From Sipunculus nudus (Eukaryota > Annelida > Sipuncula > Golfingiida > Sipunculidae): DNA of 64,000 nt. The notes below the pieces were generated by a model that was not told where the DNA came from, ran no database searches, and saw nothing but the letters and a program-made list of their open reading frames with translations. Each line of letters starts with the position of its first letter. Within the stretch, counting starts at the first letter, position 1. Shown here one piece after another: positions 29,666 through 58,800 of this stretch. The position numbers were made by a program, and so were the translations under genes. The stretch is taken from NCBI GenBank assembly GCA_026874595.1, contig CM049308.1, positions 51,094,624 to 51,158,623 of the forward strand. Reading direction: 5' to 3'.

Positions 29666-32600
29666 AGCTCAGCTGACTTTCAGTCATGCTGGGCTATAGT
29701 GATGGGTCTTTGTCTGGCGTCCTTCCATCTGTCCGTCTGTCCGTCCGGCCATCCGGCCATTAGCAGGGCACAAATCGTAACCATAGGGGCTAGGGCCATG
29801 AACCCTATGCAGTCTTAGAGGTTCTAAAAAGATCTCCTTGCAAACCTGAAATTAGGTCACTGCGACCTATATTCTCAAAGTTATGGGGTGTGTTTGCACC
29901 CCCCAGAAATAATTCTTTTAGCCAAAATTTTCGTCCCAAACCTTCCATCTTTCACATACAGCTCACCTACCAACAGGGGAAGAACCATAATTATTTTGAG
30001 GTCACAAGGTCAAAGGTCAAGGTCACAGAACCAACTTCTTTTAAAAGCCTCAGGATGCATTTTAAGCCAAACCTTTCATCCCAATTCTTTGATCTTTCAC
30101 ATGTAGCTCACCTACTAAGTGGGAGAAGAATCCTATAGATGTTGAGGTCACAAGGTCAAAGGTCAGGGTCACAGGATCCAATTTTTTTAAAAGGTTGTGG
30201 ACATATTTCAAGCTAGACCTTTCATTCCAAACCTTTCAGCACTGATATCGCTTCTCTGCCAACAGGGGAAAAGACCTGTTGATTTTGAGGTCAAAGGTCA
30301 AGTTCACAGCACCCTCTTCTTGCGTGGAGCCATTTTCAGCAAACTTTTCAATCTATACTTTCCATCTGTCATATATGGCTTACCTACCAATAGGAGAAGA
30401 AGCCTATTGATGTTGAGTTCAAAAGGTCAAAGGTCAAGGTCACAATATTGTTCTAAATGCTTGTGAACATATTTCAAGTGAAACTGTTCAACCCAAACCT
30501 TCAGTCTTCCACATATGCCACATCTATGCATCACTGAATTTGATTCAAACTTCATATTTATGGGTCTTTTTGCATGAAGAAATAACTAATTGATTTTTAG
30601 GTCAGCTGGTCAGGAGGTTAAAGGTTGCAGGTCTAAGTTATTCACTCATTGGTTGCCAAGTAATTACACCCGGCCAGATGTAAGTGGTTAGTAATTACCC
30701 ATCATTTAGAAAGAATCCAGTTGATATGTGGGCAAAAGGCCAAGGTCATAGGTCAGGGATTGTTCACAATAACTTATTTTGTAGACCATCTCTATTTTAA
30801 TGCCCCCGCCACAAGGTGGCTGGGGCATATAGTTTAACCCATGTCCGTCCTTCCGTCATTCCGAAATCAAACAGTTGTACGGACTTTTTTTTGCAATGCC
30901 TGCAGATATTGGCCTGATTTTTGGTGTGTTGGCAGATATAGACCAGTTACAGATCAAGTTCGAGTTTCTTCCCGGTTGACCTACTTTTGACCGTTTTACG
31001 GCTCCTGAACATAGAAAATTTCATGAAAAATATGAAATTTCATGACAGATACACATGTACAGACTTTTTTTCGCAATGCCTGCAGATATTGGCCTGATTT
31101 TTGGTGTGTGGGCAGATATTGACCAGTTACAGGTCGAGTTCACGTTTCGTCCCAGTTGACATACTTTTGACTGTTTTACCGCTCCTGAACATAGAAAATT
31201 TCATTTAAAATATAAATTTTCATGACAAATACATTTGTACAGACTTTTCTTCGCAATACCTGCAGATATTGGCCTGATTTTTGGTGTGTGGGCAGATATT
31301 GACCAGTTACAGGTCGAGTTCACATTTTGTCCCGGTTGACATACTTTTGACTGTTTGACAGTGCTCTAACATAGAAAATTTCATAAAAAAGTGCACATGT
31401 ATGGACTTTTTTTCGCAGTGTCTGCAGATACGGGCCTGATTTTTGGTGTGTAGGTAGATAATGACCAGTAACAGATCGAGACTGTTTTGTCCCAGTTGAC
31501 CTACTTTTGACCATTTGACTGCTCCTGAACATAGAAAGTTTCATAAAAAATAGAAATTTCATAACAAATGCATATGTACTGACTTTTTTTCCTCAATGCC
31601 TGCAGATACCACCCTGATTTTTTATGTGTGGGCAGATAATGACAGTTACAGGTCAAGTTCGCGTTTCCTCCTGGTTGACCTACTTTTGATTGTTTTACGG
31701 CTCCTTAACATAGAAAATTTCATGAAAGACAGAAATTTTTGTGGAAAATGCACATGTATGGACTTTTTTTTCACAATGCCTGCATATACTGGCATGATTT
31801 TTGGTGTGTTGCTTGATAATGACCCGTTACAGATTGAGTTTGCATTTTGCCCTTGTTGACCTACTTTTGACCATACGACACCTCCTGAACTTAAAAAATT
31901 TTTCAAAATTTTTCAAATGTTTCTAATTTGCCCCAGGCGGGGGCATTTGTGTCGTTCCGACACATCTAGTTCTTGTTTTCTTGTATATATAACCATATGG
32001 CACTCACAACTGGTACATCTCACTATATACCCATAATTGTCAGTGACACTTGTAATATATGACTCCCTTTTGTATCAGCTCATGGAGTGATAAGGATATA
32101 TCATTAGTGCATAACAAAAACACTGTTGCCGGAATGCTTTGGCCAGGCATTAAGACTGTAAGAGTTAAGTGTTAAGTTTAGCTACTGATTTATGGGAACA
32201 TTTTGCAGTTTATATCATGGAATCATAGCAATAAACTTAGTTTTCTAGATATCTGAATATTATTATACAAATCATCAGATATACCAGCAAGTGTTTGTTC
32301 TGATAATATGTGGGTCTGTACCTGGATTTAGGATGGCTTTATTTGATTACAAGACTCTTAGTGATGCTTTCTGCATTTCTTTTCTTTTAGGTTTTGCAGT
32401 TTACCTACCCTGCTGACCCCATTCAATAGCAAGCTGATAATTAAAACAAATTGGGCTTTCACTTTTTACATTTGCATGTTCATAAATCTGATATGAGAGC
32501 TCTCCAACCTGATCATGCCTTTTGAATTGTTTTGGACATTCATAACTGTTACATTCTTTGAAGCAATTGCTACAAGTTTAGTGTCTTATTGGAGGATGTG

Positions 32601-33266
32601 CGACTTGTCAGAAAACCATTATGTCTGCCAGGTAGCCATTTTAGAAATCCTTTTACCAGGACAGTTTCTGTGATTTTTTTATGATGTTTGGTCCCTTTTA
32701 GAGGATGTTTGTTGTTCAATTTCCGACCTGTCAGAAATCCAATATGGCCACCAGGACGCCATCTTTAAATTCCTTTAGAACATATTTTCTCAAGAACTAT
32801 TAAAGTGAATGCAGTGGGATGTATATTAATGTAATCTTGCATTGGGTCAAAGATTTCTTAATAAATATGACCATCATTTATGAAAGCTCAGTACAGTTGG
32901 CTTGTATTGAATAAAAATTAATATGGAAGCACCCGTTTCACAATAATTCTTGCATGGATTTCCTTGATCTTTTGCTATATTTTGATCTTATATGTGGCCT
33001 GTGTGGTATTCCTTTTGAGACTGACAGGTATCGAGCAAGCTGTGGGATTAGTTCCTGATAGCTCAACAACCATACATTTTGCCTCAGACCATCATTCACT
33101 ATGTTTTAACCAGACATATATGATAAGAATTTATTGCAATGTAGAAAGTTTAAACAAAATTGGCATATAGGTTCTGCAAAATTTTACTAGAAGTTGTGAA
33201 TTGCAGCCCATGATGTCGCAGGTCATGCTTGGCAGCTGAGCGTCATGACCCATGGGTCACTTGTTT
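29666..33266 (+). mobile_element. Helentron-like element, family A, with a nested family B element
   Basis: The 5' end is TTTTTAGCTCAGCTGACT plus a self-pairing GACTTTCAGTC, followed by CCGTCTGTCCGTCCGGCC. The 3' end is GGCAGCTGAGCGTCATGACC, then the perfect palindrome TGACCCATGGGTCA and CTTGTTT (33234-33266). The region 29790-30780 holds degenerate tandem units of about 145 bp, each with AGGTCAAAGGTCA clusters. Family B sits inside at 30801-31969. The rest (31970-33230) is unique-looking AT-rich sequence. It begins about 0.7 kb after the Churchill stop. Confidence 0.7.
30801..31969 (+). mobile_element. Helentron-like element, family B, with about 178-bp tandem monomers
   Basis: The 5' end is a hairpin, TGCCCCCGCCAC pairing with GTGGCTGGGGCA (30801-30827), followed by GTCCGTCCTTCCGTCATTCC. 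About six monomers of roughly 178 bp follow; diagnostic words are CGCAATGCCTGCAGATATTG and GGTTGACCTACTTTTGACC. The 3' end has GGCGGGGGCA (31936-31945), the inverse of the 5' TGCCCCCGCC. It is followed by the hairpin GTGTCG-TTC-CGACAC (31949-31963) and CTAG (31966-31969). Subterminal inverted repeats plus a 3' hairpin and CTAG end fit a non-autonomous Helentron (HINE). The layout also recalls bivalve pearl/BIV160-type elements. Confidence 0.8.
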
Positions 33267-34139
33267 CTAAAGGCATTGATCTATAGATTACAAAAATGCA
33301 TGATAGCAGTTTGGGAGTGGTGGCTTTCTGTAAAATAACAGCCCGTTTCCATGGTAACAATGGTTATATTGGCAGTAATTATGAAAATTACAAAGAAGGC
33401 CATAGCATTTTTAGTTTTTAATATAAAAGGATGAAAATGTCTATTGATCTTTTTTATGACCCAAGCCCTTTTGACTGATTATAGGTGTTCTGCAAATGCA
33501 ATGTTATGTAAATCAGGAATATTAAATTGATCATACTGAGTGGAAATATTGATGCATAATACATATATTCATACAACTGTCGTGACACGTATTTAAAACT
33601 ATCATCATCATCAATTTTATCATCAAAATCAGCTCTTTGTATTAATAATTAGGTAGTTTTGCTTCTCAGGTGCATTAATCCATGTAATAAAGTTTGTCCC
33701 TCTCCTCAACTTCTTAATAGAGAATTTTAGTTAGTCCCACGATATCAGAAGAAACAATAAAACACTAAAATTCTACGGAGACAAGAGGTTGCCAGCATGT
33801 GAACTTTTCACTGTCGGTCTGTAACTTTGTTAAACTACTCATTAAAGTCTGTAGCATTCCAGAGGTTGTCTGTCTCCATAATTCCGTCCAAGAGTATCTC
33901 TGTCTTCAGCAGCGTATGTACAGTCTTCTAAGTCGCGTGTCAACGTGACAGTTCCTCAAAAACGTGACAAGAAGGAGTTGGAGCCGTCTGATTATTTTTT
34001 TGTCAAGCCTGGTCTTGTTTGTATCAGAATGGACCAATGATGTGACACTTGATGGAGTGATTATTACTTTTGTTGTGCATGTCACCTCAAAACCCGTATC
34101 TCCCAACCTCCCCTAATATCATATGAAACGGGACCTGTA
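33267..34139. other. Intergenic, no gene recognised
   Basis: Nothing supported was seen; two ATCATCATCA-type short runs occur near 33600. Confidence 0.35.
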
Positions 34140-34147
34140 TGTATATC

Positions 34148-34963
34148 GGGGTCTATCTAAAACGCGGAGAATCCGCGGAGAGATGGAGAATTCGCGGAGA
34201 ATTTTAAATGCAATGATATTTTTAAATACACTTTAAAATCACTTAAATCTCCAACTATATTACCCTTAACATATTTGCGCCCTGTTAAATGACCGATATA
34301 ATTAAAACATATGTACATTATTAATGCTTAGACTCAACGCCGAGTTAATGTGTTACACAAAACGTAACAATCGTCCGAGTCACAAGCTGACACTGACAGA
34401 TCTAAAGACGAAACCGTAACACTCTTAAATTAATGTTTCAACAGTTTATTGTGCAAACCATAACTAAACCATGCAGGTGTTTATAGGTGGCGAACGAAAT
34501 ATTTAATATAATAAATAAATCATACGTTTACCTACATTTACTGGTAGATATAAAACACAATCACCATTAATAGTGTATAGGCCTAGACCCAATTTACGTG
34601 ACATGCACAAATAAAAGTTGTTTAATTTCTGGAATTAAACAAAAATCAACTGCATTTGCAATTGCAAATAGTCCACAGTCTCCTGATGCTGTGCGTTGTC
34701 TCTGGCATGGCATTAATGAAATTTTATATCGGAGAAGAACTTGCTTGTCCAAACAACTGAGAGCTGAATTTTACGTGAATGTACAGATTTTTAATTATTT
34801 CGGTCATTTAACAGTGAAAAAAAATATGTTACCAGTAGTATAGTTGGAGATTTTAAGTGATTTTAATGCGTATGTAAAAGAATCATTGCATATAAAAAAC
34901 TCTCCGCAAATTCTCCGCGAATTTTCCATCTCTCCGCGGATTCTCCGCGTTTTAGACAGCCCC
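34148..34963. mobile_element. Inverted-repeat DNA element of 816 bp with perfect 8-bp target duplication
   Basis: The ends GGGGTCTATCTAAAACGCGG (34148) and CCGCGTTTTAGACAGCCCC (ending 34963) open inverted arms of about 120-130 bp that include GCGGAGAATCCGCGGAGAGA and AAATCTCCAACTATA. The direct repeat TGTATATC flanks it at 34140-34147 and 34964-34971. An 8-bp duplication fits hAT, P or Merlin; I cannot choose, though the GGGG start is not the usual hAT CAG. The interior encodes nothing recognisable. The perfect duplication suggests a fairly recent insertion. Confidence 0.75.
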
Positions 34964-34971
34964 TGTATATC

Positions 34972-37599
34972 GCAATGACGCTGGAAAGTAACCTTTCTCT
35001 GCATGGAAAGTTTCATGTCACAGGCTGGTCAGTGTTTAAGGTTCTGCTCAGTGCTGCTCTGGTGAGCAGCCAGTTTCCTTAAAGACGATTTCGCTTTGTC
35101 TGATTTGAAGTTCCTGGGTTGTCAGCCGCGTTACAACATCCTAAACTGTCGGGCTTTTTTTAACCGACGAACATATGGAAATACCGAAGGCCAAGCCAGA
35201 TATATATCTTTTAGTGTCTATATGACACATTTCAAATATATTACAGTTAAGTACAATGTTCCAGAATATATTTTCTAAACCAGGTTTTGATGTAAAATAT
35301 TTCACCGTAAACTCATCAGTGGAACCAAAGTCTTTATTTCAGATTATTAATATATTTAATTTCCAAAAAATAAATATTATTCTCTGAATATTAGGGAGTG
35401 GGGATGATTACATTGACCATCCCTCCTTGCTAAAAAGTGGGGGGAGGGGACCTCAAATATTGACGCACCTGCCGCAGAGGTTTTCTTTAAATCCGTTCCT
35501 CTCCCTTTAAAAAAAATGTATGAAGCACGAGGTCATTGTATTGCGCCTCCACAGTCGCATAGATTCAACGCCAATTGGTACAGGTTCATCTTAAAGGAAG
35601 TTTGTTCGTTTTCTCCTGGTGTTACCATGAAGTCTCTGAGGAGGGGGGTCAGTCTTTTACCGGGTAGCCAATAAATGTTGGCGCGTTTTCCTCTGCAAAC
35701 TACCAAGTCAGTGTAAATTCCTGAATTCGGAGTTGTTCTCTGAATTTGCCTAACCATACAGACCTAACTGTTTGCTAACAATTCTCTGCCTGATCTGTTT
35801 TCCTTTAATTAGTAAGATAATCAGCTGCATTTGTTTTGAGGTGCCGGATGCAAAACAAAAGTGCGTACTATTTAGACATTTCGCTTTTCTGAGAGCCCCT
35901 TCATCATCCGATGCAATTTACAGGGTCATTGGGTGTATGTTCGACTACAACAGTCGATAGTTGTGAAAGGAAGTTAGCAGAGAAGGTAGACTAACCATTT
36001 AGGGATATTGGGTCAATTATGATTGATCATCCAAAGAAAGAATTTCAAACCTGCTACGTTGCTACGGGGCATTCACAATCAGTCTGATCTTTTCCTTTGA
36101 AGTAAGAAGACTTTCACTTTTGGCCTCGATCATATGCCCTGGATAGGTCCGTGAACGTTTCAGGAGGGCATATTTGTTTCTTTATTCCAAATCCATATTC
36201 CTGAAGTCTTGGTATTCCTTTGTTCAAGTTGTCTGTGTTCCTGGTCAGTTTTCCGGTGCCTACGGTGTCGTCTTAGAAGCACCGAACCCCTTAGTGCTGG
36301 AAGTACCTGCTTTACCATGTGAACTGGCGTGCAGCAACTGTGAGTTCCGGAGATTTTTGGTCCAAGGGTCTTTCACAGACTGCAGCCCCTTTTGAATATA
36401 GCCCCCTTTGGATGTTTCTTGTTAGGAATATATTTAATTCGTCCTCTTCTTTCATAAGGGGTCAGGCGTCGGCGAGGTCAGCCTTTTAGAACAGCTGCCT
36501 GCCTGTCAGTATTTAAAATATCTTCTACACATGGCATCGGATACTGAATATGATAAACTATAAAACATTATAATCCAAATTCTAACTGAACCTTCAGGTT
36601 TAACCAAGGAGGATGGCAAGATATATATGGTATAACCTATGTACTCTTTTAGGGGATATTTTATCTCTGCATAACCTTTCTGGGTTATCATAAACCTTTC
36701 CTAATGCACTTGAGGAATTGTCAGAATTTCGGTTGGTTAGTTCTTATGCAAACACTGCTTTTATTTTGAAGTCTAATTCATTGTTCCCAGCTCATCCTTG
36801 AATAAATCCTCCATGGATTATCCAGGATTTCTTTTGGTTTTCTTTGAAAGACTTCTTCCGCTTTGTTAATTGCTTTCATCGACTGCAAGATGAGCTTATC
36901 ATTTCAGGCCATGAACAAGCAAAACGTATGGGTCCATATGTGTCAGCAGCAAATGGCTGCAGATGTGCATCTATCTTGTTCTTCATTTCTATGACTCCGG
37001 CTGGAAAGCAAGCTTTATACATGTTATATTGAACCAGTTACTACTGAACAACAAATGACCGATCCAGTGTCCGAATCCATAAGGTTTTTGATAACTTACT
37101 TCAGGATATACCCAGATAGATATGCTTTTGCTTCTTGCACAAAGACTTTTATGCAACACTCGTCTTCAACTCTCTGTTGCTGCTTCGTCACTTGAGCTGG
37201 CGTCGGTCTCGACATGGTGATTTTTTTTTTATTTCCATAGCTTTTCATGTAATGTTATTTTTGCACGTCTCCTATGCTGGATGGCTTCACGTGGCATGCC
37301 CTGATAATATGACCTTGTGTATTTACATGTAGCACAAACTGCATAATGTATATGATAAGCAGACTCATCTTTAGTGTGGTTCCTGCCGCTCCATCACGGA
37401 CACCCCTTTGTTACGATTGGACCCGTGTACCAGTTCCTTTTCTGCTTGTGGCTCCCTGCATCTTTTTCTACGCCTCATTCGACCATTTCCATAGCTGTTA
37501 CTGCATCAGCAGCTCTTTTGAAGATTTTCTGCGAGGATGAGACCGGTTTGTATGGTCTCATGTAACAGTCAATCACAATGTGGCCTACGCTCTTTACAC
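34972..37599. other. Unassigned region of near-average GC
   Basis: Several open frames of 60-75 codons occur on both strands (for example 35533-35757 minus, and 36174-36395 and 37346-37540 plus), broken by stops. None resembles a family I know. The base composition is less AT-rich than the flanks and codon-like, so a decayed mobile element or unrecognised exons remain possible. Confidence 0.3.
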
Positions 37600-38320
37600 A
37601 GCGCTTTACCTATAGGGCTACTTCCTATATCGTAAGGCGCTGTTTGTTATGACCTCGTATCCTGCTTTGCAACACCAGAGGGGAGCACTGTATTTTTGTC
37701 CAATCAGATGAAACTTTGTGCTGGAAGACAAAGCCAAGCGAGGAATACACGGAGCCAATCATATTCATTTTTTTTTGAGTGACAGCTCATCCCCCAGCGT
37801 AACCGTCTAAACAGGCCACAGGCTCAGAGAGAATTGCCCCTGACGTGGTTTGCTTAGGGCCTTGGGCACATAGGATGCTCGGCCGGTGAGCTGTAATTCA
37901 AACGAAACGTAACAACAAAGGCTGCGTGCAAACCTCGCTGGCTGGTTTCAGTTCTGCAGACGACAGATACATGGCTACGCTAACACAGTCATAATGTCAT
38001 AATCGAATCGGTCGATGATGCGAGAATGCAGAGGGAGCAATTTAAATTCGACCGGAAACTCATCAAACGGCGCTTGAAGCGCGGCAGTGGGCGGAGCCAG
38101 GATGCCTGTTGAGTGTTTGTTTATTGGCATCTGATTGGCTGCTTGTCACATCGTACGCACGTTTATTTCAGTGGACAACAAACCGCCATCTGGTGTCTAA
38201 ATATATCATAAACGGTCAAAGCTGGCAGCGTGGAAATCAGTTGCTTCTTTAGAAGCGCAAGATTTCCGCTGCCTCGGGAGCGTAAATGTGGCCAATAAAG
38301 GCATCATTTATTGTATCTTT
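37600..38320. promoter_or_regulatory. GC-rich island with several CCAAT boxes; candidate promoter
   Basis: CCAAT or its complement occurs at about 37700 (GTCCAATCAG), 37754 (GCCAATCAT), 38135 (TGATTGGCTG) and 38291 (GGCCAATAAA), in a CpG-containing stretch with GGGCGGAGCC at about 38090. The spacing and composition resemble a promoter. No attached coding exon was found on either strand. Confidence 0.35.
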
Positions 38321-38498
38321 GAACTTCCTCTTCAAATTCTCCTCAGCTATCTAAAAGTTCCTCCGGGTGATATACCTCGTTGGCTGTTGTTGTGAAAGGT
38401 GGTGGTGGCTTTCCATACAGCATTAGACAAATATTGTACTGGGAATAAACTACATGCACTTCCTTCTGTTACAATCCACCATCCATGGGTGTTGGTGA

Positions 38499-38501
<3 letters not shown>

Positions 38502-38565
<64 letters not shown>

Positions 38566-38590
38566 TATATATAAATATATATATATATAT
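38502..38590. repeat. (AT)n microsatellite
   Basis: About 90 bp of TA dinucleotides with two AAAT interruptions near the right end. Confidence 0.95.
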
Positions 38591-39137: not shown

Positions 39138-39211
39138 ATATGCCACAGAGGAACACCATCTTTATCAAGTTCATGATTCTTTTTTGATGATGGTGTTCCT
39201 CTGTGGCATAT
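39138..39211. repeat. Perfect 23-bp inverted repeat (hairpin)
   Basis: The arm at 39138-39160 (ATATGCCACAGAGGAACACC then ATC) is exactly complementary to 39189-39211. The 28-base spacer allows a few more pairs (ATCAA with TTGAT) beyond a small bulge. The total length suits a small-RNA precursor, but a short fold-back insertion is equally possible. Confidence 0.6.
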
Positions 39212-39346
39212 TGTGCTAGAGAACAATTTACAACAATAAGAGTGCAATTTCTTAAGGAGTAAAAATCTTGTTTTGTAACATCGTAGTCACAGAACATAAT
39301 AAATCATTGAAACCAGTAATTGTGTTGGTATAGACCTCAAAACTTT

Positions 39347-39596: not shown

Positions 39597-42500
39597 TAGC
39601 TCAGCTGACTGAAAGTCATCTGAGCTATAGGGATCACCTTTTGTCCGTCGTCCGTCCGGCCGTCCGGGCGTCTGTCCGTTAACAGGGCACAAATCATAAC
39701 CGCTAGAATTGGAATCTTCTTACTTGACATCCTGGGAGGTCCATGAAAAATCTCCTTGGAAACCAGAAATTAGGTCTCTGTTACCCATATCCTTCGAGCT
39801 ATGGGGCCCCAAAGTACCCCCCAGAAAAGTCCAAAATTTCATACAAAAACTTCAATATCTCATTAACTACTTGACTGATGGTCATGATTTTTGGCATACA
39901 TATTGATCATGAGAGGTTCCATCAGTTCCTGAAGACTGGTGGCGCCACCTGTATTTTTCGATTTTTTTACGAATTTTTTTCTCTATTTTTGAGACCTTTA
40001 AAAATGTGAACATCTGTTAACAAGGCACAAATCGTAATGACTGGACTTAGAATCTTCATTCTCAACACACTGAGAGACCTATGAAAAGTCTTCATGGAAA
40101 CCAGAAATTAGGTCTCTGTTACCCATATCCTTCCAGCTATGGGGCCCAAAACTACCCCCCAGAAAAGTAGAAAATTTCATACAAAAACTTCAATATCTCA
40201 TTAAATACTGGACTGATGGTCATGATTTTTGTCATACATATTGATCATGAGATGTTCCATCACTTCCTGCCGACTGGTGGCGCCACCTGTATCGTTCAAT
40301 TTTTTACGAATTTTTTTCTCTATTTTTGAGACCTTTCAAAATGTAAACATCTGTTAACAAGGCACAAATCGTAAAGACTGGACCTAGAATCTTCATTCTT
40401 GACACACTGAGAGACCTATGAAAAGTCTCCATGGAAACCAGAAATTAAGTCTCTGTTACCCATATCCTTCCAGCTATGGGGCCCCAAACTACCCCCAAGA
40501 AAAGTAAAAAATTTCATACAAAAACTTCAATATCTCATTAACTACTTGACTGATGGTCATGATTTGTGGCATAACTATTGATCATGAGATGTGTCATCAC
40601 TTCCTGCAGACTGGTGGTGCCACCTTTATGGTTCGATTTTTTACGATTTTTTCCTCTATTTTTGAGACCTTTAAGGATGCTGTCATCTGTTAGCATGGCA
40701 CAAATCGTAACGACTTGACCTAGAATCTTCATTCTTGACACACGAAGAGGTCCATGAAAAATATCCTTGGAAACCAGAAATTAGGTCTCTGTTAACCATA
40801 TCCTTTCGAGCTATGGGGCCCCATAGTACCCCTCCCCCCAGAGTAGTCAAAAATTTCATACAAAAAATTCAATATCTCAATAACTATATCACTGATGGTC
40901 ATGATTTTTGGCATACATATTAATTATGAGATGTTCCATCAGTTCCTGCAGACTTATGGCGCCACCTATATTGTTTGATTTTTTACGATTTTTTCCTCTA
41001 TTTTTGAGACCTTTAAGGATGCTGTCATCTGTTAACGTGGCACAAATCATAACGACTAGACCTAGAATCTTCATTCTCGACACACTGAGAGACCTATGAA
41101 AAGTCTCCAAGGAAACCAAAATTAGGTCTCTGTTACCCATATTCTTCGAGCAATGGAGCCCTAAAGTACCCCCAAGAAAAGTAAAAAATTTCATACAAAA
41201 ACTTCAATATCTCATTAACTACTTGAATGATGGTCATGATTTGTGGCATAACTATTGATCATGAGATGTGTCATCTGTTCCTGCAGACTGGTGGCGCCAC
41301 CTGTATCGTTCGATTTTTTACGATTTTTTCCTCTATTTTTGAGACCTTTAAGGATGCTGTCATCTGTTAGCATGGCACAAATAGTAACGACTGGACCTAG
41401 AATCTTCATTCTCGACTCACAAGAAGACATATGAAAAGTCTCCATGGAAACCAGAAATTAGGTCTCTGTTACCCATATCCTTCGAGCTATGGGGCCCCAA
41501 AGTACCCCCCCCCCAGAGTAGTCAAAAATTTCATACAAAAACTTCAATATCTCAATAACTACATCACTGATGGTCATGATTTTTGGCATACATATTGATT
41601 ATGAGATGTTCCATCAGTTCCTGCAGACTGGTGGCGCCACCTATATTGTTTGATTTTTTTACGATTCTTCCTCTATTTTTGAGACCTTTAAGGATGCTGT
41701 CATCTGTTAGCCTGGCACAAATCGTAACGACTGGACCTAGAATCTTCATTCTCAATACACTGAGAGACCTATGAAAAGTCTCCATGGAAAACAGAAATTA
41801 GGTCTCTGTTACCCATATCCTTCGAGCTATGGGGCCCCAAAGTACCCCCCAGAGTAGTCAAAAATTTCATACAAAAACTTCAATATCTCATTAACTACTT
41901 GACTGATGGTCATGATTTGTGGCATAACTATTGATCAAGAGGTGTTCCATCAGTTCCTGCAGACTGGTGGCACAACCTGTATTTGTTCGGGGGTTTTTTT
42001 TACGAATGTTTTATCTATTTTTGAGACCTTTAAAGATATGAACATCTGTTAACAGGGCACAAATAATAAAAACTGGACCTAGAATCTTCATTCTTGACAC
42101 ACAGGGAGACCCATGAAAATTCTCCATGGAAACCTGAAATTAGGTCTCTGTTACCCATATTCTTTAGGCTGTATGGCTCCAAAATACCCCCGAGAATAAT
42201 GGAAAATTTGATACAAAAAGTGCAGTATCTCAATAACTACAACACTGATGGTCATGATTTTTGGCATACATATTGATCATGAGCTGTTCCATCAGTTTCT
42301 GCAGAGAGGGTGCGCCACCTCTATTTTTTTTCAAATTTTTACGAATTTTTTTTCTCTTTTTTCGAGACCTTTGAAGATGTGGTTATCTATCAAGAGGGTA
42401 CAAATTGCAACAACTGGACCTAGAAACTTCATTCTTGTCATGCAAGGAGGCCCATGAAGAGTGCCTGTGGAAACTTGAAATTAGGTCTCTGTTACCCATA

Positions 42501-44347
42501 TCCTTCAAGCTATAGGACTCTGAAGTATCCCTCAGAATAATGGACAATTTGATACAAAAGCTGAAGTATCTGAACAACTAATACGGAGATCATCATGATT
42601 CTTTGCATGGATATTGACCATTAAGTGTTTTTAGCTCAGCTGACTGTAAGTCATCTGAAGTATCCCTCAGAATAATGGACAATTTGATACAAAAGCTCAA
42701 GTATCTAAACAACTATTGCAGTGATCACCATGATTCTTTGCATGGATATTGATCATGGAATGTGTCATCAGTTTCTGCAGTATGGTGGCGCCACCTGTAT
42801 TTTTTTTATTTTTACAAATTTTTTTCTCTATTTTTGAGACCTCATAAGATGCGGTCATCTGTTAACATGGCACAAATCGTAACAACTGGACCTAGAATCT
42901 TCTCTCTTGACATGCTGAGAGGCCCATGAAAAGTCTCCTTAAAAACTTGAAATTAGGTCTCTGTTACCCATAACCTCTGAGCTATGGGGCTCCGAAGTAC
43001 CCCCCAGAATAATGGAAAATTTGATACAAAAGCTCAAGTATCTGAACAATTATTATATTGATCACCATGATTCTTTGCATGGATATTGATCATGAAATGT
43101 TTCATCACTTTCTGCATTCTGGTGGCGCCACCTGTATTTTTTCAATTTTTAGCTCAGCTGACTGAAAGTCATCTGAGCTGTAGGGATCACCTTATGTCCG
43201 TCGTCCGTCCGGCCATCCAGGCGTCTGTCTGTTAACAGGGCACAAATCGTAACCGCTAGAACGGGAATCTTCTTACTTGAAATCCTGGGAGGTCTATGGA
43301 AATTCTCCCTGTAAACCTGAAATTAGGTCACTGTGACCTATATTCTTCAAGCTATGGGGTTCTGAAGTACCCCCTAGAATAATGCAAAATTTAATACAAA
43401 AGCTCAAGTATCTGAACAACTAATGCATTAATCACCATGATTCTTTGCATGGATATTGATCATGGAGTGTTTCATCAATTTCTGGAGATTGGCGGCGCCA
43501 CCTATTTTTTTTTTATTTTTTTACGATTTTTCTTCTCTACATTTGTGATCTTTAAACATTTGGTCATCTGTAAACAGGGCACAAATCATAATGACTGGAC
43601 CTAGAATCTTCTGTCCTTACCTCCAGGGAAGCCCAAAAAAGGTCTACATGGAAACCCGAAATAAGGTCCCTGTTACCCATATTCTGTGAGCTATGGGGCT
43701 CTGAAGTACCCCCCAGAATAAAGATTTGGTCATATATTAAGAGGGCACAAATCATAATGACTGGACCTATAATCTTCTGTCCTCACCTCCAGGGAAGCCC
43801 ATAAAAGGTCTACATGGATACCCGAAATAAGGTCCCTGTTACCCATATCCTTCATGCTCTGGGGCTCGGAATTACTCCCCAGAATAAAGATTTGGTCATC
43901 TGTTAACAGAGCACAAACTATAATGACTTGACCTAGAATCTCCTTTCTTGATATGCTGGGAGGCCCCTGAAAAGTCTCCTTGTGCACCTGAAATTACATC
44001 TCTGTTACATATATACTTCATCCTATGCGGCTTTGAAATACCCCCCAGAATAAACATTTGGATTTGTTAACAGGGCACAAATCATAATAACTGGACCTAG
44101 AATTTTATTTTTTGACATGCTGGGAGACCCCTGAAAAGTCATCTTGTAAACCTTGAAAATAGGTGTCTGTTACCCATATCCTTCATGCTACAGAGCTCCA
44201 TAGTACCCCAATGAATATTGGATGATTTTATACAAAAGGTCAAGTTTGGAAAAAGTATTTCATTCAAATTTGACATTCAGATGATAAAATTACTTTTGTC
44301 AATGTCTTCCTGGTCAGCTGAGCGTCATGACCCCTGGGTCACTTGTT
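39597..44347 (+). mobile_element. Long family A Helentron-like element with about 340-bp tandem monomers
   Basis: The 5' end is TTTTAGCTCAGCTGACT with its pairing AGTCATCTGAGCT, then CCGTCGTCCGTCCGGCCG. Monomers can be counted by GGCACAAATCGTAA at about 39684, 40020, 40357, 40693, 41036, 41368, 41710, 42050 and on, a period of 333-343 bp. Fresh 5' ends recur inside at about 42630 and 43147, so the array is composite. From about 43570 the units shorten to about 165 bp. The 3' end is GGTCAGCTGAGCGTCATGAC then CCCTGGGTCACTTGTT. Repeated minus-strand frames of 60-100 codons are a by-product of the monomers. Confidence 0.8.
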
Positions 44348-45173
44348 AGTTTTTATGGTCGCCTGCAGATGTCTCCACATTTCATAGTGGGTCTTTTTAA
44401 GCGTTCATGTGCCCTCAAGATTTCTCCACGTTATAATTTTGGTTGCTAATCAAGCATGAAAGACAACAAGAGCCCAAAGCGGTTGACATTAATTCCACAT
44501 ATTTGCTTGGTTCAGGAGCATCTGTCATATTTACAGGACTGGTTCTTCCCTGCAAAGTACCTTAAAATTTGAAAAAGTAAGCAGCCGGGTTGCCATTGTA
44601 TTCCGAGCCTGAGATACAAAATGAGGATACGTACATTTTTAACAATGTTTTAAATGCAGGTCAGTGTAAATGTAAATTATCTTTGCAAAGGAAACAGTTT
44701 TATAACTAACAAGATCGGTTGATTGGTGGAACAAATATGGTTTGTTCCCCACCTGACATGGAAGCAGCTTCCGGAAAGGTTTTGAATACCGTAGGGAAAT
44801 TCAGGAGACACTTAAAAAAGACTGATCAGTGTAATATCAGTAACAAACTGTGGCATGGTCATCCATGTTCAAACTTGACCTTGCCCTGCATCAGATGCAT
44901 AATTGGTCAATCAATTGTAATTGAGCCTCAAATTCTTTTCAAGTTATTGCAATAACATCATTTCAGCAAAATCATATCTGTGACCCAGAAAAATAAGTCA
45001 AGGTCATCCAGATTTGAACTTAACCTAGCCCTTTATAAGATCCAGCTTCTTCATCAATGCTAAGTTTACAATTACAGTAGTCTATTGTGAAGTACATCTG
45101 CTATGGTTAGCAAAAAGCTCAGTTGTTTTGCTTAATAAGTATTGTTTTTAAATTACTTTTTTTATGCCCCCGT
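44348..45173. other. Spacer between family A and family B elements
   Basis: No supported gene. The frame at 44719-44955 (78 codons) has no recognisable domain. Confidence 0.35.
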
Positions 45174-46700
45174 AACAAAGTGGCCGGGGCATATAGTTTT
45201 ACCCAAGTCCGTCATTCCGTCAGTCCGTCATTCCGAAATCAAACAGTTGTACGGACTTTTTTTTCGCAATGCCTGCAGATATTGGCCTGATTTTTGGTGT
45301 GTGGGCAGATAATGACCAGTTACAGATCGAGTTCGCGTTTCGTCCCGGTTGACCTACTTTTGACCGTTTTACGGCTCCTAAACTTAGAAAATTTCATGAA
45401 AAATATAAATTTTCATGACAAATACACATGTACGGACTTTTTTTCGCAATGCCTGCAGATATTGGCCTGATTTTTTGTGTGTGGGCAGATAATGACCAGT
45501 TACAGATTGAGTTCGCGTTTCGTCCCGGTTGACCTACTTTTGACCGTTTTACGGCTGCTAAACTTAGAAAATTTCATGAAAAATGGAAAGTTTCATGACA
45601 AATACACATGTGCGGACTTTTTTCGCAATGCCTGCAGATATTGGCTTGATTTTTTGTGTGTGGGCAGATAATGACCAGTTACAGATTGAGTTCGCGTTTT
45701 GTCCCGGTTGACCTACTTTTGACCGTTTTACGGCTCCTAAACTTAGAAAATTTCATGAAAAATAGAAATTTTATTGACAAATAGACATGTACGGACTTTT
45801 TTTCGCAATGCCTGCAGATATCGGCCTGATTTTTGGTGTGTGGGCAGATAATGACCAGTTACAGATCGAGTTCGCGTTTCGTCCCGGTTGACCTACTTTT
45901 GACCGTTTTACGGCTCCTAAACTTAGAAAATTTCATGAAAAATAGAAATTTTCATGACAAATACACATGTACGGACTTTTTTTCGCAATGCCTGCAGATA
46001 TTGGCCTGATTTTTTGTGTGTGGGCAGATAATGACCAGTTACAGATTGAGTTCGCGTTTCGTCCCGGTTGACCTACTTTTGACCGTTTTACGGCTGCTAA
46101 ACTTAGAAAATTTCATGAAAAATAGAAAGTTTCATGACAAATACACATGTGCGGACTTTTTTCGCAATGCCTGCAGATATTGGCTTGATTTTTTGTGTGT
46201 GGGCAGATAATGACCAGTTACAGATTGAGTTCGCGTTTTGTCCCGGTTGACCTACTTTTGACCGTTTTACGGCTCCTAAACTTAGAAAATTTCATGAAAA
46301 ATAGAAATTTTATTGACAAATACACATGTACAGACTTATTTTCGCAATGCCTGCAGATATTGGCCTGATTTTTGGTGTGTGGGCAGATAATGACCATCTA
46401 CAGATCGAGTTCGCGTTTCGTCCCGGTTGACCTACTTTTGACCGTTTTACGGCTCCTAAACTTAGAAAATTTCATGAAAAATAGAAATTTTATTGACAAA
46501 TAGACATGTACGGACTTTTTTTCGCAATGCCTGCAGATATCGGCCTGATTTTTGGTGTGTGAGCAGATATAGACCAGTTACAGATCGAGTTCGCGTTTCG
46601 TCCCAGTTGACCTACTCTTGACTGTTTTACGGCTCCTAAACTTAGAAAAATTCATGAAAAATAGAAATTTTCATGACAAATACACATGTACAGCCGTTTT

Positions 46701-47376
46701 TAGCCCTCAGCTCATAGGCTGATGGGCTATTGTAGTCACCCAAGCTGTCCGTCTGTCCATCTGTCTGTCCGGTGTCTGTCCGTCCGTCCGTCCGTTCCGC
46801 GTCTGTTAACTTTCACCTTGTGAGCGGGATATCTCTAAAAGGATTCACCGTTGGAATTTTATTTCATCAGTGAAGATGTATATTGATAAAATCTCGGTCA
46901 AGTTCGAAGATGGGTGACCTTGACCCATTTTTCTACTTTTTAGAGCTGATTATAGAAAAACACTCAGAAGTTTTTATCTCAGGAACCATTGTGTGGAATT
47001 TCACAAAACTTACTATGATCATTGGGACTGATGGTCTGTATGTGCTGCACAATTTTGGTGGCGCCACCTGCAATTTCTGATTTTTTAATGAAATTTTATC
47101 GGATTTTTTCAATTTTGGCCTTTTGTGCAGGATATCTCTAAAGGTATTCAACACAGGAACTTCATTTCTTCAGTGCTATTGCATTATATTCACAAAATCT
47201 TGGTCAAGTTCAAAGATGGGTGATCTTGACCTACTTTTCAATATCACAGAGCTTAGTATAGAAAAAAACTTAGGAGCTTATTTCTCAGGAAGCATTTGGT
47301 GGATTGTTATGAAACATGGTATATACCTCTCCAATTTAAATTTATAAATGATTATCAACTTTTGCTAATATTCTAG
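46701..47376 (+). mobile_element. Family C Helentron-like element, copy 1, nested in family B
   Basis: The palindromic start TAGCCCTCAGC pairs with GGCTGATGGGCTA (46701-46729), followed by CTGTCCGTCTGTCCATCTG and TCCGTCCGTCCGTCC. The end is AATATTCTAG (47376). It sits between a T-tract of the host monomer and the resumed TATCGCAATAC, which fits insertion next to T as for Helentrons. Inside are GGTGGCGCCACC (about 47058) and two similar half-units beginning GTGGGATATCTCTAAA-like sequence. The repeated frames of 64-74 codons are not genes. Confidence 0.6.
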
Positions 47377-48281
47377 TATCGCAATACAAAGCTTACAGAT
47401 ACTGGCCTAATGTTTGGTCTGTGGGCGCATAATGACCACTTACAGATCGAGTTCGCGTTTCGTCCCGGTTGACCTACTTTTGACCGTTTTACGGCTCCTA
47501 AACTTAGAAAATTTCATGAAAAATAGAAATTTTCATGACAAATACACATGTACGGACTTTTTTTCGCAATGCCTGCAGATATTGGCCTGATTTTTTGTGT
47601 GTGGGCAGATAATGACCAGTTACAGATTGAGTTCGCGTTTCGTCCCGGTTGACCTACTTTTGACCGTTTTACGGCTGCTAAACTTAGAAAATTTCATGAA
47701 AAATAGAAAGTTTCATGACAAATACACATGTGCGGACTTTTTTCGCAATGCCTGCAGATATTGGCTTGATTTTTTGTGTGTGGGCAGATAATGACCAGTT
47801 ACAGATTGAGTTCGCGTTTTGTCCCGGTTGACCTACTTTTGACCGTTTTACGGCTCCTAAACTTAGAAAATTTCATGAAAAATAGAAATTTTATTGACAA
47901 ATACACATGTACAGACTTATTTTCGCAATGCCTGCAGATATTGGCCTGATTTTTGGTGTGTGGGCAGATAATGACCATCTACAGATCGAGTTCGCGTTTC
48001 GTCCCGGTTGACCTACTTTTGACCGTTTTACGGCTCCTAAACTTAGAAAATTTCATGAAAAATAGAAATTTTATTGACAAATAGACATGTACGGACTTTT
48101 TTTCGCAATGCCTGCAGATATCGGCCTGATTTTTGGTGTGTGAGCAGATATAGACCAGTTACAGATCGAGTTCGCGTTTCGTCCCAGTTGACCTACTCTT
48201 GACTGTTTTACGGCTCCTAAACTTAGAAAAATTCATGAAAAATAGAAATTTTCATGACAAATACACATGTACAGCCGTTTT

Positions 48282-48957
48282 TAGCCCTCAGCTCATAGGC
48301 TGATGGGCTATTGTAGTCACCCAAGCTGTCCGTCTGTCCATCTGTCTGTCCGGTGTCTGTCCGTCCGTCCGTCCGTTCCGCGTCTGTTAACTTTCACCTT
48401 GTGAGCGGGATATCTCTAAAAGGATTCACCGTTGGAATTTTATTTCATCAGTGAAGATGTATATTGATAAAATCTCGGTCAAGTTCGAAGATGGGTGACC
48501 TTGACCCATTTTTCTACTTTTTAGAGCTGATTATAGAAAAACACTCAGAAGTTTTTATCTCAGGAACCATTGTGTGGAATTTCACAAAACTTACTATGAT
48601 CATTGGGACTGATGGTCTGTATGTGCTGCACAATTTTGGTGGCGCCACCTGCAATTTCTGATTTTTTAATGAAATTTTATCGGATTTTTTCAATTTTGGC
48701 CTTTTGTGCAGGATATCTCTAAAGGTATTCAACACAGGAACTTCATTTCTTCAGTGCTATTGCATTATATTCACAAAATCTTGGTCAAGTTCAAAGATGG
48801 GTGATCTTGACCTACTTTTCAATATCACAGAGCTTAGTATAGAAAAAAACTTAGGAGCTTATTTCTCAGGAAGCATTTGGTGGATTGTTATGAAACATGG
48901 TATATACCTCTCCAATTTAAATTTATAAATGATTATCAACTTTTGCTAATATTCTAG
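48282..48957 (+). mobile_element. Family C element, copy 2
   Basis: It reads the same as copy 1, displaced by 1581 bp, so it arose by the block duplication and not by a second insertion. Confidence 0.65.
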
Positions 48958-49343
48958 TATCGCAATACAATGCTTACAGATACTGGCCTAATGTTTGGTC
49001 TGTGGGCGCATAATGACCACTTACAGATCGAGTTCGCGTTTCGTCCCAGTTAACCTATTTTTCACCATATGACAGATCCTGAACATAGAAAATTTCATGA
49101 AAGACAGAAATTTTCATTAAAAATGCACATATATGGACTTTTTTTCACAATGCTTGCAGATACTGGCCTGATTTTTGGTGTGTTGCTTGATAATGACCCT
49201 TTACAGATCGAGTTTGCATTTTGCCCTTGTTGACCTACTTTTGACCATACAACACTTCCTGAACTTAAAAAATTTTACAAAATTTAACAAATGTTTCTAA
49301 TTTGCCCCAGGCGGGGGCATTCGTGTCGTTCCGACACATCTAG

Positions 49344-52800: not shown

Positions 52801-55800
52801 TCACTTGCATTTTGTCCATAATTATTAATAAAGAATATCAGTTTTTAGTTCATTGGAAATTGTAAACCAAATCAGCAAATGATTATACCAATAGCTCAGA
52901 ACAGACCAAATAGCACGTCCCCCTTCCCCCTATAGTGACGTGTACTTCTGAATTGCCTACAGTACACAAAATTTCTGAATTTTCAAGATGGAACCACAAG
53001 CAATGTTTAATATTATTAACTACAGTGCTGGTAACAATTTGGGATGTTTTGGTAATGCATGTCTGCTGAGTAAATTATGACTACTTGTATGACATTTAAT
53101 GTTACATAAATTATCAAAGATTATGTCAATGTAAGAAAACTATATATTAACATATACTAACTGGGAGCACAATTTTTTTCCTCTTTTGACCTTTGCCTTG
53201 CCAAAGTCGTATATTCTCTAGGGATTGTGATTGGCTGTCCACCTGGTCTGATTGGTCATTCCCTTCACTGCTCTTCTGTGATTGGTCAGTCCCTTCTGTA
53301 TCTTGCTGTGACTGGTCAGCAGGACTAGTTTTAGTTTCTTGCTGTGACTGGTCACTCCCTTCAATAATATTCTGTGACCGGTTATTCCCTTCTTCCTCAG
53401 GATCTTTATTATGTACTGTTCCTTCCTCACAGTCCATTAAACATTCTACATTTTTAGTTATATTTGTTGATTCCAAGTCTGTATTATCTCCTGATGAGTC
53501 TGCATGACCTGACAGTGTAACTGAACTGTCCTTGACCTTTGATTCTGGGTCACAAACAGTACTTTGTGATTCTGTTATATCTTCTTGTCCTATAGTTTGA
53601 GAATTTTTCTGCAATGAATTTACTTGATCCATTGGGAAAGTTTCCAAAATGTCCATGTGCTCTTTTGGGAAGTTAAATCCTGCCAATATAGGTCTGAAAG
53701 GAAAACAAGAATGCAAACTTTTAAACACACTGGATAACTTCAACCTTGTTATGACAGGCACAACATATAGTTATAAAAGGTATGAATCTGAATTTACCTT
53801 GTAAACATTTATTTGTTAGCTTATCAATCAAACAAAAAAATACCAAAACTTTATGGTATAAAAAATTTCCCAAAATAATGTTTTAGCTCAGCTGACTGAA
53901 AATCATCTGAGCCATATCAATCACTCTTTTTCCTTCGTCCTGTCTGTCTGTCCATTAACAGGGCACAAATCTTTACTGCTGGACCCAGCATCTTCTAACA
54001 GAAAACCCATGGAGGTCCATAAAAAAATCTAAGAAACCTCAAATCATCTCACTGTGACCTATACCCTCTTAGCTATGAGGCTTGAAAGTACCCAAAGAAT
54101 AACTAGAATACGGGTAGTCGACAAGCGACTACGTGTATCCGCCTAAATCAGAGTGGAACGGGTGAAGTGAGGCATGGATTGAGTGGCAAGGGGAAATAGA
54201 GTGAAGTGTTGCATATTAGCATGGATGTCTGCAGCCAAATTGTGTATGTAGGTTGCTCCACCTACCACAAAATCCAGAAAGCCGTCCAAGTTGTATATAT
54301 ATGCAAAATTTAAGGCAGATAAGTCAAACCACTACATGTATATGAGTGATTTTTGCCCTTGGCAGACAAACAGATGGACGCTGTGCAAAAATGGTTGCAG
54401 GTGGCGCCACCAGTTTTGCGTATGATAAAGAGCTATGTGAGAACTATACACATGCAAAACTTTGGCCCAATCGGTCAAACAGTTCCCAAGATATGAGCTT
54501 GGATATCTGTTGCATAAACTAGAATGTAGGTGGCGCCACCTGTAATAAAATCAAGAGAGCTGTCGGGGATGTATAAACCTGGAAAATTTTAGGCAGATAT
54601 GTCAAACCACTGCCGAGATATAAGTGATTTTATCCCATGGCAGACAAATAGACGGGAGCTGTGCAAAACTGGCTGCAGGTGGCGCCACCAGTTTTGCGTA
54701 TGATAAAGAGCTATTTGAGATCTATACACATGCAAAATTTTGGCCTAATAGGTCAAACGGTTCCCGAGATATGAGCTTGGATGTCTGCAGCGTAAACGTG
54801 AATGTAGGTGGCGCCTCCTGTCATAAAATCAGAAAAGCTATCCAGGATGTATACGCATGGCGAATTTCAGGTGAATTAGTCAAGTCACTGCAGAGATATG
54901 AGTGATTTTAACCCAAGGCAGACGAACAGATGGACACTGTGCAAACATGGTTGCAGGTGGCGCCACCATTTTTTGTGTATGTTATAAAGCTCTCCAAGGG
55001 CTACATTTGTGCAAAAAAATTCTCCTGATCGGTCAAACGGTTCCCGAGATATGTGGGTTTATGTGTGGAAACAGACGCACAAACAGATGCAGAGCGCAGA
55101 GGAAAGGTCAGAGGTCATAAACAAAATCAGGGCGCAGCAGTTCACATGTGACCCGAACATAATCCCGGGTTTCATAAAATTCCGCCCAGCGGTTACGGAG
55201 TTCTCCGGACACCTACGCGGCGGTGGCGGCAGGGTGAAAACATAGTATCCGCAAAACTCTGTTTTGGCGGATACAATTACACATTTGATACAAAAGCTCC
55301 AGTATCTGAGTAACTAATGCATTGATTGCCATGATCGTTTCTCATTTCCAGAAGACTGGAGATGCCACCAACATTTTATCTACTTTTTAGCATTTTTTGT
55401 CCTTTTTTTAAGACCTTGAGATGAAGCCATCCATCCTTTAACAGGGCACAAATCGTAACCGTAAGACCTAATATACATCCAAGGAGGTCCTAAGCAAATC
55501 TCCTTGGAAACCTAAAATTAGGTCATGGTGACCTATATTTTGAAAACTACAGGCTGAAAACCTGATTTTGACCTACCAGTCAGTCAGATTGGGCACAAAT
55601 AGTATCTGCTAGGCCTAAAAACTTCAAACAGGCCATTTAGGTAGGTCCTCGGTAATTCTGCCTGGAAAACTAAATTAGACCATGGTGACCTACACTCTGT
55701 GAAACATGGCCCTAGAATGGTCAAAGTAATATACAGAGAAGTCTTGAGCAATCTCCATGGAAACTTGAAATTAAGTCATAGTTACCTATATTGATGACCA

Positions 55801-58800
55801 AAATAATTGTAAGCACCCAGTCAGTCAGACAAGGTATAAAACTTTACTGTTGGACCTAGATTCTTCTGTGTTGTTATCCAGGGATGTCCTTAAAAATGTG
55901 CATGTTCATGTTTATCTCAGCTGACTGCATACAAAAAGGCTAGAATTCATGGGAATGGCTAGACAAATTATCATAAAATATATTTTCTTCTTGTTGAGTT
56001 TGAAGAACTTTAATTGCTAGAGTTGAATGGGGATACCACCTTCAAAATTTGGCATTCTGATTCAGATGATAAAACTCCTTTAGTGAATGTCTTCCTAGTC
56101 TGCTGAGCACAATGACCCACAGATCACTTGTTTATGCTTGATCTAGTTAATATTCAATAATCAATGTTCATTATTAATAATCAATGTTCTCTTGAAAATG
56201 TTATCACATGCAATTAGAAATGCAAAAACAGAATTAATCAGCACCGAATATACACAGGTAACTAATTAGATATTCAAATATTAAAACAAAATCCAAAGTT
56301 TAATTGGTTTAAAGCATTAATTATGAAATAATATATATGAACTGATAATGTGATGATCATACTTTTTCACATACTCAAGCTTTATTTATTTTAGTTTCTG
56401 TCCTTTATCCATGTTCCTTGATATGGGAATGATAATCTATATGTATTACTTACCCCTGAGGAGCTGACCCATGTCTGATTTGTATTATCCGTCCATGTCC
56501 TGTAAGATGAATTAAAACTGCTGGATAAAAGTATCAGGTTTCCCCAAGCATGGCAATATGTAATATGGCTTATAATGGGGAACTGATTTAGTTACAGAAC
56601 CACAGAATAACTACTTTTATAAATGCTTGTTCATCTGATACGTGCATGATCAGTATTTCTATTGTAATTGTTTATGGTGGAGTTAACTTTTGATTAAAAC
56701 AAAAAGTAAAATTAAATGTTTCACAAAGATTTAATGTTTTTAATAAAAATATAATTTTATAGAATAACATAACAAAATGTAAAATTTCTTTCAAGGATCA
56801 TTCAAAATCATACTTAAATATTTTAAATCAAATTAAATTGCACAATGGGACCAATCAAAATATGAAATTTTCTGTGACGGGGCAAGCAACATATTGTATA
56901 TTAAACTTTTGATCATACATTCAATTTCAATCAAGAAAAAGTATTATTTTCAAAAATGAATCAGAAAAGAAATGTTTTTAAATTAATGAAAAGCAACCAA
57001 AGGAGACTGCTGTCAGATATGATGTAACAGTGGCTAGGAAAAGATAGCCCACTTGCTGGAGGAAAAGAGAGCAAGGAGAAAGGTGAGACAACGGAAACAG
57101 CTGATCCTGCAACACCACTCAGACATAAACTGCAAGAAGTGTAGCAGAGACTGCCTTGCCAGAGTAAGACTTCAGACACTGCTCACATGTGGACTGACTG
57201 ACAAGCCACGGTGCTAAAATTGTCTATTAGATAGAAGGATGCCTTCCGAAGTTCCGGTACATTACTGTTAACTCAGAGTACTGCAGGGCGTAAAGAAAAA
57301 CACTTTAATGTCACAAGGGATGCTTCTTACCTGCTAACCTCTCCATGATGGCCCCAAGCACCAGGCCCTGACAGGTCTCGACCAGCAGCACCTTGCTTCC
57401 TGCTCGAACATTACCCTGCGTCAACATCTGACTCAGGGTGTCTAACCTCAGATGACTGTAGTGTGGAACATGGTGAATGTAAAACACAACTTATGAGTGT
57501 CAAATTATATAACATTGTATAATATGAGCAGCTGTTAAGTATTTTGACAATGAAATCATAGCTTGTGAAGAAAACTTGCTGTAATTGCAACAAAACTGAA
57601 TACTAGTATGTTAATTAGCCCTGCCTGGGCTTTAGTGTATTGTTTACTGCTAAAATGCTTCAAATGTAATGTGATTCCATGTACCGATAGACGCGACGTG
57701 ACTCAGTTCTAGCTCTTATCACTGATGCCCTGTAAAGTCTGTATGGCGAATCCCTGATATTTGCATATTAGGGTGTCACAAGGCTCCTGACCATTCCCTT
57801 GCATTTGCATATCAGACCCCCTGGCCTTCTGTGAATGGCATCGTTGCTATGAGGAGGCTAACAGCTTGGTAATATTCGCACTGAAAACATGCATATTTTT
57901 AAAAAGTCCATACATGGACTTTCATGTCCTATGATATATCTCTGCTGTTCGAACATATGGTCCACTGGCAAATTTAAGTATATTGTAGACAATGTCACAT
58001 CGATTTTGTACTGTGTATTTGTTAGTGTTCAAGTTACACATGAAAGTTCTGCCACTGTTGAGTTGCCAACACGCTGAACTGTGATCGTTTCAGTCAGCTG
58101 ATACATAAATAACAGTTTTACTGCGTTCGTCGCGTGTGGACCTAAATATCTCATGCTGATTGGATGACCTGGAGACACATTTTTAAACCGGCCTGCAGCA
58201 ATGAGCACTGGTCTAATAAACAGTGACACACTGACTCACTGAGGCTTAGGGTTTTATATAGTGTTAAAAATCTAGCCGTACTCAACTAGCCGAGGACCTA
58301 AACATATTAAGACTGATAAAATGGGAATATATATATATATATATATCGCAAGCTGGTAGCCCATAACAGGCTGTTAATGAATTAACCATGTTGGTTTTGA
58401 TAAAAAGATCCTGGGAAAGACCACTATAATTACTCCTTACGTCACTGGGAAAGACCTTCGTTCAGCGAGGCGGTGATGTGTGGTGCTGACTGTCAGGTAC
58501 GGCCCAAGTTTACCAGTGGATGAAATAAGAGGGTCAGAGAATGGTAAGTAGTTATGTAAGTTGCTGCAGGGTAGCTGTACCAAAAGTAAGTGCGACACAG
58601 TGAGAGCTGTTTGATATCTCTGTCAGAGCCATTTCATTGACTGGGCCAGTCTAATGATAATTGATGAAGTGTTACCAAGAAAATCCTAATTTCTTATTTC
58701 TTTAGTTCATGCTAATCATTATTACAAACACAAGAGTAATTTACTCAACCTTTATATTCTGATTGGTTAAATATTCCTGAAAGAAGACCATGAAATTGGT

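Follow-up and report, generated by a model that had tools for sequence, protein, structure and literature searches.

The window analyzed here is a 64-kb stretch of contig C3 in the 1.43-Gb genome of Sipunculus nudus, and it holds copies of four repeat families, A, B, C and D, some of them inserted into others. A reading made from the letters alone (the sequence-only reading) had described these as unrelated families sharing one Helentron-like blueprint. We find it highly probable that families A, B and D belong to the non-autonomous Helentrons (HINEs), their ends being recognized by a Rep/helicase supplied from another place in the genome; the Helentron-like description thus holds for these three, while C lacks a 3' subterminal inverted repeat (subTIR) and a 3' hairpin. 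The evidence is the recurrence of their ends, a 5' hairpin, CTTG or CTAG before T at the 3' end, dispersed copies, and the presence of Rep genes. What the analysis adds is an interruption about 5 bp below the hairpin loop in A to D and in a fifth family, E; E as, most likely, an end of a Rep-bearing Helentron; and C as a passenger of B. The elements in the window are as follows.

29666 to 30799, plus strand: 5' part of an A element with 146-bp monomers, up to the insertion of B
30800 to 31969, plus strand: B element with 5' ATGCCCCCGCC hairpin, ~180-bp monomers, 3' GGCGGGGGCA, hairpin and CTAG
33229 to 33263, plus strand: A 3' end (subTIR, palindrome, CTTG followed by TT), noted apart from the copy at 29666
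39598 to 44345, plus strand: A element with ~342-bp monomers, from 5' AGCTCAGCTGAC hairpin to 3' CACTTG
45164 to 49343, plus strand: B element with nested C, the C-bearing stretch duplicated in tandem
46701 to 47376, plus strand: C copy 1, inside a B monomer, ending CTAG at 47376
48282 to 48957, plus strand: C copy 2, the same insertion repeated in tandem, ending CTAG at 48957
53885 to 56130, plus strand: A element with D inserted within it
54103 to 55278, minus strand: D element inserted in A, with its 5' end at about 55278 (TTGTATCCGCC hairpin), 3' GGCGGATAC, hairpin and CTAG at 54103
10272 to 12885, minus strand: a fourth A element, outside the range of the sequence-only reading and known from both its ends

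A motif check of the window found the start motifs of all four families where they had been claimed, including those of A at 29666, 39598, 42633, 43151 and 53885 on the plus strand and at a 5' end at 12885 on the minus strand, B at 30801 (plus), and D at 54135 and 55266. The internal tandem monomers were confirmed as well. Since the CTAG of D at 54103 lies on the minus strand, D reads from 55278 to 54103. The 3' ends of A, CTTG followed by TT, lie at 33263, 44345 and 56130 (plus) and 10272 (minus), as judged from similarity and reading; those of B, CTAG followed by TT, were read at 31969 and 49343 (plus). At its 5' boundary A reads TTTT and then AGCTCAGCTGAC, and its 3' terminus runs from a GCTGAGC stretch through a palindrome built around GACCC..GGGTC to CTTG before TT. 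C begins TAGCCCTCAGC and ends CTAG before T. The additional A 5' ends at 42633 and 43151 fall within the long element at 39598 to 44345, which suggests tandem or nested copies of A.

DNA folding bore out the palindrome that opens each family, with z scores of -4.5 (A), -4.7 (B), -4.7 (C) and -7.8 (D) and none of 200 shuffles as good in any case. A 5' subTIR with a nearby inverted copy is present in all four. The sequence-only reading had regarded the 5' palindrome as an extra to the Helentron plan; a subTIR with a nearby inverted repeat, however, belongs to DINE-1 (PMC4067079) and to Cg_HINE (PMC7492417) as described in the available portions of those papers. As for the 3' design that had been proposed, an inverted copy of the 5' end followed by a hairpin and CTAG or CTTG, the ends and the inverted 5' subTIR copies were found by reading in A, B and D, and the hairpin of B folds well compared with shuffles (z -3.0, equalled by 1 of 200).

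Dispersal and mode of insertion are consistent with this class. Genome searches were made with the first 601 bases of A, with D and with C, and the best 40 candidates were scored from each first-look list; these lists (4257 for A, 7089 for D, 3110 for C, 2651 for an E query described below, and one further list of 1803) are not copy numbers, and the scored copies are the most similar ones. A, C and D were thus followed genome-wide, whereas B is known from the window and from a relative inside one Rep gene copy. A gave 39 non-self full-length matches at 95-97% and two partial matches at 72%, and the D matches, non-self and full length, were 94-96% identical. Insertion between Ts without duplication of the target, as the sequence-only reading expected, is what both B and D display. 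For D, the flank test comprised 30 loci including the window copy, with locus L059 left out, and 29 were usable: the base after CTAGT is T in all 29, and no target-site duplication was seen in these 29 flank pairs, in which flank-to-flank matches are no longer than in shuffled pairs (length 0, 13 observed vs 12.7 shuffled; length 2, 10 vs 10.9; length 3 or more, 2 vs about 1.2). Within the fetched DNA, 5 of 29 D loci had empty-site matches, the best at L044 (92.6% over 162 bp); that of L058 is at 85%, those of the window copy and L049 are A monomers at 70-79%, and that of L040 is gapped and weak. For B there is one full paralogous empty site, L038, which is 98% identical to a Rep gene copy (L036 together with L081) that contains a B relative; two Ts are by reading the sole excess, and no target-site duplication was found at this site. 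The host of this B-type HINE is a Helitron Rep gene (L081 and L036, C3:10572500 onward).

The 5' ends of A to E resemble one another in geometry. In the 5' ends that were folded, an outer stem of 6-8 bp is separated by one interruption from an inner stem of 5-6 bp, which is closed by a loop of 3-4 nt; in all five families a small interruption lies about 5 bp beneath the loop. Most A copies and B show a 1x1 mismatch at this point, the A subfamily of 29666 shows 1x2 as judged by eye, and C, D and E show a bulge. Individual folds vary: the D bulge can slip to 6 bp, C has its interruption at 6 bp with a 4-nt loop and an equally good alternative fold, and one E copy, E2, scores 7+7. This pattern was noticed first and counted afterwards. 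In ~360 kb of sequence less duplicates (L001 and L039, duplicates of the window, were left out here and in the pair and palindrome counts below), a search for hairpins next to Ts, whether interrupted once or not, returned 107 overlapping hits, against none in one mononucleotide shuffle; an earlier count gave 161 hits in overlapping frames against 13 in one such shuffle. The hits that precede a GTC/TCCG-rich stretch are A, B, C, D and E, each with a 5-bp inner stem in at least one copy, where the family cut, a stretch score of at least 5 in at least one copy, was chosen after looking. Two interrupted hairpins lacking the stretch have inner stems of 3 and 6 bp, and several others are perfect palindromes. 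Pair counts at A 5' ends (34 hits, 21 distinct strings, of which only 10-18 formed each pair) were discarded because the set mixes genuine 5' ends with reverse-strand and chance hits.

A second common feature lies in the element interiors. The perfect 12-bp palindrome GGTGGCGCCACC occurs 12 times exactly and 15 times with at most one mismatch in the window, against 0.00 expected, and every copy lies within A, C or D.

39938 to 43502: A monomers carrying GGTGGCGCCACC 6 times exactly and 2 times with a single mismatch
47057 to 48649: GGTGGCGCCACC in the C copies, one exact each, at 47057 and 48638
54400 to 54967: D monomers carrying GGTGGCGCCACC 4 times exactly and once with a single mismatch

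Window and fetched sequence together hold 131 copies, and the next commonest 12-bp palindrome has 15. The 29 fetched D copies account for 114; the D flanks (86 kb) hold 3, the A loci (25 kb) 2 and the Rep loci (143 kb) none. Around the palindrome A and C have about 45 bp in common (82%), C and D 17-18, and A and D 17-20. AGGTGGCGCC may resemble the CTCF core. The GGTGGCGCCACC string also occurs in a paper that, by its title, concerns a chitinase.

The claim that the families are unrelated in sequence proved only partly right. Pairwise likeness of the 5' modules exceeds that of shuffled sequences for B-D (z 4.9; 0 of 500 shuffles), A-C (z 3.1-3.7; 2-4 of 500) and B-C (z 3.0; 7 of 500), so part of the likeness may be descent; A-B, A-D and every pair with E are not above shuffles, and for A-B and A-D the families do differ as described. 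The chances seem to us evenly balanced that the 5' modules of A to D derive from one ancestral end, the geometry being inherited while both hairpin arms changed together. Such descent would account for the scores of B-D, A-C, B-C and, more weakly, C-D (z 2.1; 20 of 500), and for the long stretch that A and C have in common around the palindrome; the pairs that do not rise above shuffles, all those with E among them, nevertheless have the same geometry.

Rep genes are plentiful in this genome. With 150 of 195 candidates scored, the domain PF14214 has at least 143 matches, several of which lie in open frames longer than 2200 amino acids, and the 28 of 30 fetched loci with a usable frame (L009 and L010 had none) fall into one main and at least two other lineages. 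On contig C7, the open reading frame contains STPR, DUF6570, OTU and Helitron_like_N domains; at L069:1988-6001 the Rep protein starts with STPR repeats and DUF6570, ahead of the OTU domain. The protein also has what we take to be an HUH-like string and Y...Y strings.

One Rep unit has an end that can be placed. On the 3' side of the C7 Rep gene, two family E 5' ends, E1 and E2, face the gene; E-type monomers occupy this side of Rep on contigs C11 and C13 as well, as do parts of E on C4, C8 and, weakly, C3. Among the best 40 of 2651 candidates for the E2 edge, 34 of 39 non-self copies lose homology 4 nt beyond the hairpin on its outer side, with two copies 2 nt shorter, two 1 nt longer and one 7 nt longer; 25 further partial matches were excluded from the 39. 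E ends lie near Rep in the same orientation on three contigs, at 11070 bases (C7), 11066 (C11) and 10716 (C17), the latter two taken between the coordinates of the matches, and the C17 Rep copy is 98% identical upstream. The sharp edge of homology and the nearness of E to Rep on three contigs make it most likely that E forms the 5' terminus of a Helentron bearing Rep, whose Rep gene would lie on the minus strand of the element. In keeping with this, the E-ended unit carries a Rep with Helitron_like_N, as Helentrons do, and OTU, as some do. E also occurs without Rep: inspection by eye puts the other 37 of the 39 copies over 30 kb away from every PF14214 match listed. On the unplaced contigs C139 and C141 (G000), E is found in head-to-tail arrays, mostly of about 4668 bases per unit; in each unit, repeats of the terminal 60-69 bases of the E 5' end stand ahead of that end.

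Several results weigh against these readings of the HINEs and of their Rep. The D 3' hairpin is only weakly above shuffles (z -1.9; 11 of 200 as good), and the 3' stem of A is no better than they are (z -0.1; 87 of 200), for which reason the A palindrome rests on sequence likeness across 11 ends, which were found through similarity to one among them and of which some are diverged. C has neither a 3' subTIR nor a 3' hairpin beyond shuffles in the window and fetched copies, as the sequence-only reading had seen in describing a C that ends CTAG without a clear hairpin (z +0.25; 111 of 200). The Rep protein was read without helicase and endonuclease parts. Six Rep copies, that of C7 included, match L069 from its first base, and the 3' end of the Rep unit would lie beyond. 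Unit ends first guessed on C7 from an 11-bp inverted match with a hairpin and CTTG were rejected, because C11, 99% identical, continues across both points, as C13 (88%) does across the 5' point. Finally, no A to D end was tied to Rep in the fetched Rep loci by exact motif or BLAST, the sole match there being the B insertion in a Rep gene.

This last result bears on the proposal that all four families are mobilized by one unseen autonomous element, to be recognized by a Rep/helicase flanked by any of their ends. Rep was found with E ends on C7, C11 and C17 and not with A to D ends in the fetched Rep loci, and a single element is therefore not shown. The common plan and 5' hairpin geometry would suit a single mobilizer, as would the weak likeness of some 5' modules. 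We nonetheless regard it as unlikely, given at least three Rep lineages among the 28 usable loci and a Rep unit whose defined 5' end carries E; moreover, families are defined by identical subTIRs in the portion of PMC4067079 available, and the subTIRs of A to D differ.

Less probable still is that the Rep copies on C7 and C11 arose by segmental duplication, with E beside Rep by chance. The two are 99% identical in the stretches compared and identical over 120 bases at E1, as a duplication would have them. Yet homology stops 4 nt outside the E2 hairpin, beyond which C7 carries a gypsy-type retroelement, and this outer flank matched nothing on C11 with all 15 candidates scored; the C17 Rep copy, too, is accompanied by an E end at a comparable distance and in the same orientation, as judged from match coordinates. 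That these families are ordinary terminal inverted repeat transposons (miniature inverted-repeat transposable elements), as the related bivalve element Pearl was first called according to part of PMC7492417, is scarcely credible with no target-site duplication for B and D and two ends that differ in structure.

If A, B and D are HINEs, an HUH Rep would bind the 5' hairpin as single-stranded DNA, with the small interruption about 5 bp beneath the loop serving as a handle, and nick beside it. Rolling-circle copying would then stop at the 3' palindrome with CTTG or CTAG, and the copy would be joined into a T-run. One Rep-bearing Helentron, that with E ends, most likely has the same kind of 5' end. 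A kinked hairpin at both HINE and Rep-bearing ends suggests a testable route of recognition and copying, and together with the tie between E and Rep makes the pairing of Rep with HINEs itself testable. By analogy with bacterial REP and IS605-type systems, one might speculate that the Helentron Rep recognizes shape rather than sequence, namely a 5' hairpin kinked 5 bp below a mostly 3-nt loop, with GGTGGCGCCACC as a second, selected signal; we advance this tentatively and think it rather doubtful. Recognition by shape would let one machinery serve many end sequences, which would explain how HINE families multiply while their partners look unrelated, and classing Helentron families by end sequence alone would then mislead.

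C has a different history in the window. The sequence-only reading had treated it as a separate insertion, a view that did not survive. Within one B element, 45806-47694 repeats as 47387-49275 at 97%, and the two window copies of C are due to this further tandem duplication. Non-self full-length C matches (best 40 of 3110; 38 outside the window) are 97-99% identical, and all 8 fetched copies, chosen from the best-scoring of the 38 and read at both edges, are flanked on both sides by the B-monomer sequence of the window and sit at the identical point in it. Therefore C inserted once in a B monomer, in a T-run as judged solely from the interrupted monomer, and was then copied together with B as its cargo: one HINE spread by another. 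Two diverged C copies are known, one at L004 (83%, 5' end present, flank by eye not B) and one at L065 (about 75%, no 5' end).

A, B and D fit the descriptions of HINEs from oyster (PMC7492417) and from mites and flies (PMC4067079), in so far as those papers were available. As in Cg_HINE of Crassostrea gigas (PMC7492417, in part), there is a 5' subTIR with an inverted repeat, a GTCY-type microsatellite in several, central monomers (138-181 bp in Cg_HINE), a 3' subTIR and palindrome, a TT target without duplication, and families of which some are unrelated in sequence. HINEs disperse satellite-like repeats in bivalve genomes, and in that account none of 10 Rep-bearing Helentrons could be related to the HINEs; here, in contrast, a Rep unit is tied to family E, and C lies inside B without a 3' subTIR or palindrome. 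The available text of neither this paper nor PMC4067079 mentions a fixed interruption below the loop. The elements of mites, Culex and Drosophila (HINEs, DINE-1 and Helentrons; PMC4067079, in part) differ in sequence and host and are alike in their 3' palindrome, T-rich target and ambiguous terminal Ts; mite HINEs have subTIRs 2-4 nt from the 5' end, and an OTU domain and, in one case, a Rep on the minus strand are reported. The substrates of TnpA-REP, IS608 and ISDra2 (PMC8266576, in part) resemble the 5' ends as single-stranded hairpins with a stem irregularity, an analogy and not a membership, those enzymes being bacterial. The stem bulge is needed in Escherichia coli REP, and an unpaired or mismatched stem base is contacted in IS608 and ISDra2; group 3 REPs are perfect palindromes recognized without a bulge (PMC8266576, in part). 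A limited literature search on Helitron hairpins or bulges and Rep returned no title on Helitron ends, which is not proof that none is published.

Elsewhere in the window, 4749-5070 and 6466-6787 form an inverted pair with 92% identity over 322 bases, built from short palindromic units; this is a foldback-like element of a different kind.

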